A DNA stretch of 64,000 nucleotides from Desulfurivibrio dismutans (GTDB taxonomy: Bacteria; Desulfobacterota; Desulfobulbia; Desulfobulbales; Desulfurivibrionaceae), in contig NZ_JARGDQ010000004.1 of assembly GCF_029210385.1 (NCBI RefSeq), forward strand, positions 1-64,000, in the 5' to 3' direction. This document shows, one piece after another, positions 21,833 through 60,145 of this stretch (position 1 is the first letter of the stretch; every line of letters starts with the position of its first letter). Below the pieces are notes generated by a model. It ran no database searches and was not told the origin of the DNA. It saw only the letters and a list, made by a program, of their open reading frames with translations. Both the position numbers and the translations under genes were made by a program.

Positions 21833-23544
21833 CTGTCACCTGTTTCAGCTCGTTGAGTTTCCAAGCGTTCCAGCAGAAAGTCGGCCGTAAAGGGCAGGCC
21901 GTCGTAGCGGTTGATCAGCTCGGCGATGGTAAAGCCGGTTTCGCGGCGAATGAGCCGGGCAAACTGGCCGGTGGCGTTACCCTCCACGCCAACAACCCGG
22001 TCGGCCTTTTGCAGCAGGTCCAGGAACTGTTCCGGCAGCAGGGGCCACACCTGGGAAAAGTGCAGGGTGCCCACCTTGAGCCCGCGATCCCGCAGGATGG
22101 CGGCGGCTTCGCGCACCGGCCCCAGGCTGGAACCCCAGCAGACCAGGAGCAGGGCGTCTTGGTCCCCTTCCAGGGTGGGGGCGGTAACTTCCTCTTTGAG
22201 CAGTTCGAGTTTCTGCAGCCGCTTTTTCACCATGGCCGTGCGCAGCCCATAGTCCTCGCTGAGATGGCCATCTTCGTCGTGCTCGTCGCTGTCGGCCACC
22301 ACCAGATGCTCCGACAGGCCCGGCAGCAGCCGCGGGGAGAGGCCATCGGGGGTGAGACGGTAGCGCCGGTAGGGGGTTGCCACCTTTTCGGGGTCGTCGC
22401 CGGGCCGGACCGGGGTGATGCCGTTCAGCTCAAAAGGCGTTACCGGCCGCGCCGAATCGGCCAGAAACTGATCGGTAAGCAGGAAGACCGGCGACTGGGA
22501 GCGTTCGGTCAGGGCCAGCGCCCGGGCGGTAAGGGTAAAGCACTCCTCGATGCTGCCCGGTGCCAGGATCGCCCGGGGGAATTCGCCGTGGCCGGCATGA
22601 AGAACAAACTCCAGGTCCCCCTGCTCGGTGCGGGTGGGCATGCCGGTGGCCGGTCCCGGCCGTTGGGCCACCACCGTCAGGACCGGCGTTTCGGTCATCG
22701 CCGCCAGACTGATTCCTTCGGCCATCAGGGCGAAACCGCCGCCGGAGGTGGCCACCATGGCCGGCGCTCCGGCAAAGGCCGCGCCGATGGCCATGTTGAT
22801 GGCGGCAATCTCGTCTTCGGCCTGCTCGATTACGCAGCCCATGGTCTCGGCATGGGTGATTAACTCCAGGACGACGGAGGTGCTCGGGGTCATGGGGTAA
22901 AAAGCACAGAACTTGAGGCCGCCGGCTAAAGCACCCAGGGCGATGGCCTGATTGCCGTTGAGCAGCAGTCGTTTTTGGGTGCTGTCGGCGGTGGCGGTGG
23001 CATCGGCCAGAACAAAATCGTGCTCCGGAAGGTGGGCCTTGGCCCATTCCCGGCTTTTTTTCATGATCTCCTGGTTTTCCTCCAGCAGTTCCGGCTTTTT
23101 TTGGCCCAGCGTCGCTTCCACCGCCTGGTAGAGCTGTTGCTCTTGCAGCCCCAGTACCTGACCGAGCAGGGCCAGGGCGGCGGTGTTCCAGAGTTTCTCC
23201 GGCCCCAGTTCGCCAAATGGGACCGCAATGGCCCCCGGCAGTTCGGGGGCAAACGCGGCATCGGCGATAATCAGGGCCCGTTTGGTCAGTTGCGGCCGGT
23301 GCAGTTCCACGGTTTCGGCGTTGAGCGCCACCAGGATGTCGATGCTCTCCCGGGGGGCGGCAAAGGGCCCGGCGCCCACCCGCATGGCAAAGGTGTTGTG
23401 CCCCCCGCGGACCCGTGAATGATAGGTCTGGCTGGCAAAAATCTCCCGGCCTGCGCGGACCAGCGCCTTGCCCAGCAGCTGGCCGATGGTCACCAGGCCC
23501 TGGCCGGCTTCGCCACCAATGAGAATCTGGATGTCTTGCTGCAT
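21829..23544 (-). CDS. 2-oxoacid:ferredoxin oxidoreductase alpha subunit, gamma-alpha fusion
   Basis: This 571-residue fusion has a gamma domain at residues 1-185 (IGGEAGQGLVTIGQLLGKAL, then HSRVRGGHN) and an alpha domain at about 200-571 (GNQAIALGALAGGLKFCAFYPMTP, EQAEDEIAAINMAIGAAFAG, SGGGFALM). This architecture is typical of KorA-type enzymes in anaerobes. It lies directly upstream of, and overlaps, the beta subunit gene. The complex is cytosolic and ferredoxin-linked. Two small conserved-looking proteins are encoded upstream in the same direction. Confidence 0.93.
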   Translation of the reverse strand: MQQDIQILIGGEAGQGLVTIGQLLGKALVRAGREIFASQTYHSRVRGGHNTFAMRVGAGPFAAPRESIDILVALNAETVELHRPQLTKRALIIADAAFAPELPGAIAVPFGELGPEKLWNTAALALLGQVLGLQEQQLYQAVEATLGQKKPELLEENQEIMKKSREWAKAHLPEHDFVLADATATADSTQKRLLLNGNQAIALGALAGGLKFCAFYPMTPSTSVVLELITHAETMGCVIEQAEDEIAAINMAIGAAFAGAPAMVATSGGGFALMAEGISLAAMTETPVLTVVAQRPGPATGMPTRTEQGDLEFVLHAGHGEFPRAILAPGSIEECFTLTARALALTERSQSPVFLLTDQFLADSARPVTPFELNGITPVRPGDDPEKVATPYRRYRLTPDGLSPRLLPGLSEHLVVADSDEHDEDGHLSEDYGLRTAMVKKRLQKLELLKEEVTAPTLEGDQDALLLVCWGSSLGPVREAAAILRDRGLKVGTLHFSQVWPLLPEQFLDLLQKADRVVGVEGNATGQFARLIRRETGFTIAELINRYDGLPFTADFLLERLETQRAETGDR

Positions 23545-57737: not shown

Positions 57738-59567
57738 TCAGCCATAATTGACATCCGCCGACTCTGCGGTTCCGTATTCAGTTTTTTCGCCGATTTGCAA
57801 CTCAAGTAATTCACTTTCGTAGTCGAAGTTGAAGAAGATGGTCCGGCGGGTCAGGGGGAGGTTGGCGAGTTTTTCTTCTTTGGCCGGTCTTTCGATTATG
57901 ATTTCATCGTCGGTTCTTTTGAGCCGCAGTTGATCTTCCCAACAGTCAATGGTGAGCAGGCCTCCCTCCTTACATTCTTCCAGTTCAAGCTTGACTATGA
58001 GGGGCGGAGTCAATTTCTCCAGCCTGGCGGCAAATTGGCGCTGTTCTTCCTGGCGCTGCTTCTTTTCCGTGAGGAACCGGATCATCGGCAACACATTTTC
58101 CACGCCCAGATCATAGAGAGTGGTGGTGATTTTCAGGCGCAGGTCGTGCTCTTCTTCTTCCGAACAGTGCATGTATTCCTGCTCCAACCGGGACATGGCG
58201 TCCAAAGAGTGACGAACGATGTGGGTGGCGGGCAGTTGGTGGTCGGCGACTTTTTCTTGGAGGTGGCCCATCAGGATCCGGTTGAACTGTTCATCAAGCT
58301 GTTTTATCTGCTGGCGGGTGGCGGCCAGATTGGCCAACAGGGAGCGGCGGTGCTGGAAAAGGTTGCGACCGGAAAATTCACAGCTGTCCGGTCCACAACC
58401 GGCTGTACGCAGGGTGTCGTTGCCCAAAAGCAGCCGGTTTTTGCCGGAAAGCAGGATTTTGTGACCGGTGAAGCGGTGACGGACGTGCAGCCGGGCGTTC
58501 ATCATGATGGCGGTTAAGCGGCCATTGCCGAGGACAATGACCGGGGCATACAAAGAACCTTTCTGGATTGAACGATTGATAATTATGGGGCCGGAGGTCG
58601 CCACCATGTACTTGTCGTCGGCCTGATTGACCATTTCCGCCACGATCTCGGCGCCGTAAACCTTGCCCTGGACCATTTCCGCTACTTTAATCAGGCCGGC
58701 GGTTTTAGTTTCAAAGGCGCTGGGGATGGTACGAAATTCGGCGATATCCAAATCAAGGGCCTGCTCTCGGTCGCTTTTTCCACGGGCTTTAACATGGCCA
58801 CCGGCCCGGAAGCCCACTTCGTCTACGCGCAGGTCACGCTCCACAGCGATGTAGCGCAGATTGTCTTCGCCGTCGTAACGGGTTCTTACCATGCCGTTGA
58901 GGGCCGAGAAGAGTTTGATTCTGTCGCTGCCGTTTTCGCGTTTTTTTATACCATTGCCTAATTCAATGGCATAGGGGATGGCCGTGCGGGGCTTGATAAT
59001 GGTGCCGCGAACGTCGATTCCTGGCTCACCGTTAATCCTGCTGTTGTCGATAACGGCCAGCAATTCGCCCTGGGTGGTTTGGGCGAACTCGCCGGTGGTG
59101 TAGTGATCTATGTGTTGAGCCTGCCGTCTGGCCCGCCGGGCAGCAGCATAACGTCCTTTTTCGCGTAAAAAACCGGGGCTCCCGTCTTTAGGTGGATGGC
59201 CGCTCACTTTAAGACGGCTTCTGGTACGACTCAGATCAAAGGTAGCCATGCGCTTGTGCGGGCCCGGATCATTGGTCACAGCAAAAGAGATTCGGGTATG
59301 GGGATCCACTTCCCCGCGCTTGATTTTTTCCAGCAGGGCTTTGATGATTTGCTCCATTTCGTGGAGGATGTTGGCATCGCCGAGGGGGATTTCCTCCAGT
59401 CGGCGCAGCCTTAATTTTTGCATTACTTCCCGCAGGGAACGCATCAGCAGGTCACGCAGGAGCAAAGAGCCGCTGGGAGCGGTGCTGATTTTCGTCCGGT
59501 GTTTTTGATACAGGTCTGCCGGGGATGGCATATTGACGGTAATCTGGAAGAGGTGGCGGGTGGCCAT
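57738..59567 (-). CDS. FapA-like (DUF342) protein
   Basis: This 609-residue protein has an N-terminal helical region of about 140 residues. It is followed by the DUF342 signature GEPGIDVRGTIIKP, then LNGMVRTRYDG, DLRVDEVGFRAGGHVKARG, YMVATSGPIIINRSIQKGSLYAPVIVLGNG and further strands of a right-handed beta-helix, and a C-terminal coiled coil (LAATRQQIKQLDEQF). DUF342/FapA proteins occur with flagellar or pilus genes and may bind polar partners. Function unknown here. The internal CGPDSCEFSG (CxxxxC) is unusual. Confidence 0.6.
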   Translation of the reverse strand: MATRHLFQITVNMPSPADLYQKHRTKISTAPSGSLLLRDLLMRSLREVMQKLRLRRLEEIPLGDANILHEMEQIIKALLEKIKRGEVDPHTRISFAVTNDPGPHKRMATFDLSRTRSRLKVSGHPPKDGSPGFLREKGRYAAARRARRQAQHIDHYTTGEFAQTTQGELLAVIDNSRINGEPGIDVRGTIIKPRTAIPYAIELGNGIKKRENGSDRIKLFSALNGMVRTRYDGEDNLRYIAVERDLRVDEVGFRAGGHVKARGKSDREQALDLDIAEFRTIPSAFETKTAGLIKVAEMVQGKVYGAEIVAEMVNQADDKYMVATSGPIIINRSIQKGSLYAPVIVLGNGRLTAIMMNARLHVRHRFTGHKILLSGKNRLLLGNDTLRTAGCGPDSCEFSGRNLFQHRRSLLANLAATRQQIKQLDEQFNRILMGHLQEKVADHQLPATHIVRHSLDAMSRLEQEYMHCSEEEEHDLRLKITTTLYDLGVENVLPMIRFLTEKKQRQEEQRQFAARLEKLTPPLIVKLELEECKEGGLLTIDCWEDQLRLKRTDDEIIIERPAKEEKLANLPLTRRTIFFNFDYESELLELQIGEKTEYGTAESADVNYG

Positions 59568-59685
59568 ACATCTTTTCCCTGTTTGAAGGAGTTGCCGTTT
59601 TTGGGGAAAGTGGTGGGAAGTGGAAGCTTCCCGGGTCGCGATGCAGGCTGGTGCAATCTTGCGATCCTAAATAAGATGAATCCGC

Positions 59686-59827
59686 AAAAAGTCCGTCCAT
59701 GGACTTTTTTCTCCCCGGAAAGCGAAAACGAGGTTTCCGCTTTCCTTACAAATCAATAGTTTACACAGCAAGCTACTGATTTGCGCGCCCATCCATGGGC
59801 GCGATGATGACTTCTTGCGAAGTCATC
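59686..59827. repeat. Array of five adjacent hairpins
   Basis: Five stem-loops in 142 bp: AAAAAGTCC/GGACTTTTT (59686-59709), GGAAAGCGAAAAC/GTTTCCGCTTTCC (59717-59745, one mismatch), CAAATCAATAG/CTACTGATTTG (59749-59783, one mismatch), CGCGCCCAT/ATGGGCGCG (59784-59803) and GATGACTTC/GAAGTCATC (59806-59827). The stems are 9-13 bp, mostly perfect, and the loops are 2-21 nt. It fills the non-coding gap upstream of the FapA-like gene. It could be a composite repeat, an RNA or a nucleoprotein site. Confidence 0.8.
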
Positions 59828-59953
59828 AAATAAAGCTTGTGTCGATGAGGTATACAACGAAGGGAGGAGAGGGTCAAATTTTATTGTTTTTTTTGTGGCG
59901 GGCAAGAAGGCTACGCCACCGGTAAGCGCTGGAGGGTATAGTTTAGCGGCAGG

Positions 59954-60145
59954 TCACATCGCAGTTGGCTGGCAGATATTTTCTTCCTGGTTGGCCACCC
60001 GGCCGCATTTTTAGCATAGAAACCGGGGGCTGCCGACCAGCCCCCGGTACTCCTCCGGCGATTTAACCGGCAAACCGTCTTTGACCAGTTTGCACAGACT
60101 TTTACCCGCCGGTTTTCTATCTTTCTTTTTGCTGCTGTTGCCCAT
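59954..60145 (-). pseudogene. Small zinc-finger-like protein with an in-frame TAA
   Basis: The minus-strand frame from ATG 60145 reads MGNSSKKKDRKPAGKSLCKL, then VKDGLPVKSPEEYRGLVGSPRFLC, TAA, then KCGRVANQEENICQPTAM and a final TGA. Apart from the stop (60011-60013) this is a neat 63-residue protein with a CxxCG metal-binding motif and a C-terminal Cys, so TAA replaces one residue in C-x-K-C. It ends just before the hairpin array. Confidence 0.55.

Follow-up and report, generated by a model that had tools for sequence, protein, structure and literature searches.

The five adjacent hairpins in the window (a 64,000-nucleotide stretch of a Desulfurivibrio dismutans contig) very probably make up one copy of a 153-bp non-autonomous MITE, moved by a transposase encoded elsewhere (Table 1). 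This reading draws on the dispersed copies of the unit, its terminal repeats, the 6-bp duplications that flank it, a congener locus without it, and a family of related ends spread through the order. The element has the features by which MITEs are recognized: it is shorter than ~500 bp, contains no gene (153 bp is too short for a transposase), has terminal inverted repeats and a duplication of fixed length, occurs in many dispersed copies, is missing from the corresponding site in a congener, and shares its ends with an autonomous element, found in another genome. A composite mobile repeat, one of several options raised in a preliminary description of this DNA, was thus the right one, given ~37 dispersed copies bounded by terminal inverted repeats and 6-bp duplications.

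Table 1. The hairpin element and its parts, in window coordinates.
Feature	Position	Strand	Length	Remarks
MITE, five-hairpin element, whole unit	59675..59827	+	153 bp	18-copy alignment and 6-bp duplication
Left target-site duplication, AAATAA	59669..59674	.	6 bp	perfect match to 59828-59833
Right target-site duplication, AAATAA	59828..59833	.	6 bp	perfect match to left duplication
Left terminal inverted repeat, GATGAATCCGCAAAAAGTC	59675..59693	+		15/19 identical to left end of 1887-bp IS; recurs genome-wide
Right terminal inverted repeat, GATGACTTCGCAAGAAGTC	59809..59827	-		16/19 identical to left end of 1887-bp IS
Hairpin 1 (59686-59694/59701-59709)	59686..59709	.	9 bp	100%; stem AAAAAGTCC/GGACTTTTT
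Hairpin 2 (59717-59729/59733-59745)	59717..59745	.	13 bp	92%
Hairpin 3 (59749-59762/59770-59783)	59749..59783	.	14 bp	86%
Hairpin 4 (59784-59792/59795-59803)	59784..59803	.	9 bp	100%
Hairpin 5 (59805-59814/59819-59828)	59805..59828	.	10 bp	100%; right tip of element
Direct repeat a, CCGTCCATGG	59693..59702	+	10 bp	
Direct repeat b, CCATCCATGG	59789..59798	+	10 bp	

The array had been described beforehand as five adjacent near-perfect hairpins, and all five inverted repeats were indeed found, between 59686 and 59828. Folding of positions 59670-59850 gave z = -7.14 on the plus strand and -7.96 on the minus strand, with all five stems present on either strand, and 0 of 200 dinucleotide-preserving shuffles folded as well, which bears out the earlier judgement that the cluster is far from chance. 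The suggestion that hairpin 1 serves as a bidirectional terminator is weak: its T-run lies within the stem, and a terminator scan called none of the five hairpins. In the copy alignment, the stem of hairpin 1 is longer in most other copies (GCAAAAAGTCC/GGACTTTTTGC), and hairpin 4 is enlarged in five copies (L019, L020, L021, L022 and L023) by a G-rich, GGGGACGCGGGGGGCGCG-like insert that marks a divergent lineage of the element.

Aligning the copies together with their flanks delimits a sharp unit that starts with GATGA and ends with TCATC. The extent first proposed, 59686-59827, is slightly off at the ends of the unit, which the 6-bp target duplication sets at 59675-59827. Of 31 copies, 13 have a perfect flanking duplication and 11 more have one that matches at 5/6 positions (24/31 at 5/6 or better), while a control pairing flanks from different copies gave 0.9% perfect 6-bp matches. 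Length 6 alone stands out, with lengths of 4, 5, 7 and 8 yielding 0-2 perfect duplications each. No recognizable target duplication was seen at L019, L021, L023 and L026, as is expected for old or altered copies. The terminal inverted repeats are imperfect and ~19 bp long, and the complement of the right one matched the genome 57 times (reversed control, 0). The outer hairpins overlap these repeats, and all five hairpins belong to the element.

The genome of the window (G000; 2.84 Mb in 33 contigs) holds ~17 full or near-full copies, 75-96% identical, and ~20 further short or partial ones, scattered over many contigs and on both strands. The search of the genome and its relatives that had been proposed at the outset returned the ~37 copies and one full copy (L045), at another locus, in the complete genome of a congener (G002). 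At the locus orthologous to that of the window copy, G002 has the flanking genes in the same order and lacks the element; its spacer is too diverged for the single-copy target to be read letter by letter. Near full length, the five-hairpin form was found only in these two of the 258 genomes searched from the order. Two contigs of the window's genome break within a copy, C30 at its end (L024) and C32 at its start (L025), with the left half of the element on one and the right half on the other; their outer 6-mers mismatch, so a join of C30 to C32 is not supported.

Short copies may derive from full ones by recombination or slippage between the 10-bp direct repeats (CCRTCCATGG), which would remove the inner hairpins and leave a 57-bp form. 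The predicted 57-bp product of a deletion between repeats a and b is 2 substitutions from a real short copy (L013), and its length and junction recur in several short copies; others, of 46-47 bp, consist of hardly more than both ends. Six-bp duplications flank the short copies too, which is not proof that short forms move, since a deletion after insertion keeps the duplication.

Judged by sequence, the ends of the window element belong to a large family, comprising GATGGNNTCGYAAAAAGTC and its variants. The core GATGGNNTCGYAAAAA is present in 22 of the 27 Desulfurivibrionaceae genomes, and the longer end GATGGNNTCGYAAAAAGTC in 126 of the 258 genomes of the order, a single genome holding as many as 94 exact matches; the reversed pattern gave 0 matches in the same 258. 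Scanning 84,980 species genomes yielded at least 117 stretches with family ends; nearly all of the matches listed belong to Desulfobacterota, and a few bear the label Nitrospirae or Aminicenantes. When facing ends in the fetched loci and viral contigs were paired, 67 elements measuring 81-220 bp proved to have a 6-bp duplication matching at 5/6 or better (49 perfect), two of them being one locus read twice with overlap, or duplicated contigs. The 49 perfect duplications yield the consensus AANNTT, its four defined positions being matched by 46, 36, 36 and 46 of 49, and the 67 elements have a median fold z of -6.1, in part since their ends pair together. Genomes of the genus also carry a second, distinct MITE subfamily of ~100 bp (GATGGCCTCGCAAAAACCCG ... 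CGACGCCGAC; L080, L081, L074, L091, L073 and others), likewise with 6-bp duplications such as AATTTT. A related element of ~125-130 bp on contig C4 of the window's genome (L055, near 23214-23232; ends GATGATGTCGCAAAAA / GTCGGCGTCGCAAAAA, duplication AATTAT) links the five-hairpin and ~100-bp subfamilies. Ten viral (IMG/VR) contigs (L210-L219) contain the exact terminal repeat, and two of them, L213 and L214, carry the same 171-bp element with a 5/6 duplication.

In a complete genome of the same order (G089), ends of the family type recur 1887 bp apart. Eight copies of this insertion sequence (IS) were extracted, with ends identical in all; five are flanked by 6-bp duplications (AATTTT, AAATAT, AAAATT, ATGATT and ATACTT), two by 7-bp duplications (ATTTATT and AATTGAT) and one (L222) by none. 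The IS has a single open reading frame of 584 amino acids with the domains DUF772, DDE_Tnp_1 and DDE_Tnp_1_6. The best NCBIfam match of this transposase is IS1182, at 158.7 bits; this falls under the 270-bit cut-off, and the IS is therefore named IS1182-like rather than IS1182. It is either a distant relative of IS1182 or a member of a neighbouring group, possibly the ISDol1 group of ISNCY. Like the window family, it has a terminal repeat of the GATGNNNTCGYAAAAAGTC type and an AT-rich duplication of 6-7 bp, but it encodes one DDE transposase gene, whereas the 153-bp window element is gene-free.

End sequence and duplication length together make the 1887-bp IS the probable parent type of the window element, although the window ends agree with it at no more than 15-16 of 19 positions; an IS with ends GATGANGTCGCAAAAAGTC would be the likely immediate parent. 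Mobilization would have been the work of an IS1182-like DDE transposase resembling the G089 enzyme, acting in trans on the ~19-bp terminal repeats and inserting the element into AT-rich, AANNTT-like 6-bp targets, which would be duplicated in the process. We infer that the window's genome later lost this transposase, which is absent or undetected there today. A search for DUF772 transposases (PF05598) found none in G000-G003 and 19 in the control, G089; a protein search of the bacterial family with the 584-amino-acid transposase, run without a positive control, returned nothing. Several candidates were set aside. The DUF772 transposases of G004, G007, G013 and G218 lack matching ends. A possible autonomous copy on contig C30 (L028), with inverted ends 1.2 kb apart, proved to be two separate remnants around a gene that we take, by eye, to be CobT-like. 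The unpaired ends in the fetched loci have only non-transposase genes beside them and are solo or truncated ends.

There is modest support, from comparison of copies, for maintenance of stem pairing. Across 18 copies, 94.3% of the cells in the stems pair (shuffles, 93.4%), and 9 pairs changed on both sides, 3 of them in hairpin 2 and 3 in hairpin 3; shuffles gave 2.6 +/- 1.2 such pairs, and sliding the partners no more than 5. Every two-sided change is confined to a single copy, one example being an A-U pair of hairpin 2 that reads U-A in L045. The proposed check of pairing at homologous loci came out in favour of conservation, but it compared transposed copies rather than orthologues. Templated repair inside the hairpin can also correct palindromes, so kept pairing is not proof of RNA function.

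Kept pairing would suit hairpins that arose with a MITE and now work for the host as terminators, insulators or 3'-end mRNA stabilizers, an explanation that we consider improbable. Its other support is positional. In a longest-ORF picture drawn without a gene caller, copies are mostly intergenic, in tandem, divergent and convergent gaps, and more than a third have a gene stop codon within ~20 bp of the element edge. Some of these stops come from the element itself: each end, read inward and joined to a target T, gives TGATGA, at which an incoming reading frame can stop at once, though any use of this stop is speculation. Against a host function, the terminator scan passed over all five hairpins, and other copies lie close to start codons or between divergent genes. 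Since MITEs as a class are found mainly in intergenic DNA (PMC10969869), the 3'-end positions need no host function.

Much less credible is a dedicated structured noncoding RNA, or a cis-regulatory RNA belonging to the FapA-domain gene next to it (57738-59567, minus strand), 108 bp upstream of whose start the window copy lies. The fold (z of about -7 to -8) and the excess of two-sided changes over shuffles speak for it, but Rfam gave no credible match at gathering or permissive thresholds, the copies sit in unrelated contexts, target duplications bound most of them, and the orthologous G002 locus has no element. The structured RNA first suggested thus found neither an Rfam match nor a fixed genomic context. 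On the other side of the window copy, a small gene of ~63 codons (59951-60145, minus strand), with CxxC-like cysteines and conserved in G002, looks broken in the window because of an in-frame TAA at 60011-60013, where G002 has an arginine codon.

REP/BIME-type palindromes mobilized by a RAYT (Y1 tyrosine) transposase, or a derivative of IS200/IS605, would likewise be palindromic at the ends, multicopy and mostly intergenic; such transposases use single-stranded DNA and leave the target unduplicated, so the duplications of exactly 6 bp contradict them. The existence of a DDE IS whose ends are of this kind also speaks against them, and we regard this origin as extremely unlikely. Hairpin arrays are also found at replication origins and site-specific recombination sites (dif, attC, phage att), but both of these early options are contradicted by the ~37 dispersed copies and their 6-bp duplications, and with no match in phage and plasmid collections they retain almost no probability.

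As a MITE, the window element is of an ordinary kind. No prior description of its subfamily or superfamily was found in the open-access literature that was searched, by end sequence and for MITEs linked to IS1182 or to sulfate reducers. Chunjie of Geobacter uraniireducens, a multicopy, mostly intergenic MITE with size variants and partial copies (PMC10969869), resembles the window element in copy number, position and formerly deltaproteobacterial host, as compared from the review's description, but measures 178-235 bp rather than 153 bp. In QMITE2 of Coxiella burnetii, also a MITE, the transcript has a strong predicted fold and some copies are truncated and REP-like (PMC10969869); QMITE2 differs in its duplications (7-9 bp), terminal repeats (23-29 bp) and lineage. 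Multicopy palindromic intergenic sequences of Geobacter metallireducens and G. bemidjiensis, read partly as regulatory sites in two papers (PMC2700814, PMC2996986), are likewise unexplained families in formerly deltaproteobacterial hosts, a likeness of description rather than of compared alignments.

A bolder and tentative proposal, which we think unlikely to hold in full, is that GATGGNNTCGYAAAAAGTC with a 6-bp AANNTT target defines a Desulfobacterota-wide MITE superfamily mobilized for the most part by IS1182-like transposases that are rare and are gained and lost among genomes, and that in the lineage of the window the element has acquired a five-hairpin body whose pairing is under selection, for example because blocking transcription through the insert makes insertions harmless. 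What had been an unexplained hairpin cluster is now a defined mobile element with exact ends, a target and a probable parent, and the matched ends of IS and MITE allow a direct test of trans-mobilization by an IS1182-like enzyme. Repeats of this sort can disrupt assemblies and pass for RNAs or regulatory sites, and the family ties together many unannotated intergenic repeats of the Desulfobacterota, present in about half of the order's sampled genomes.
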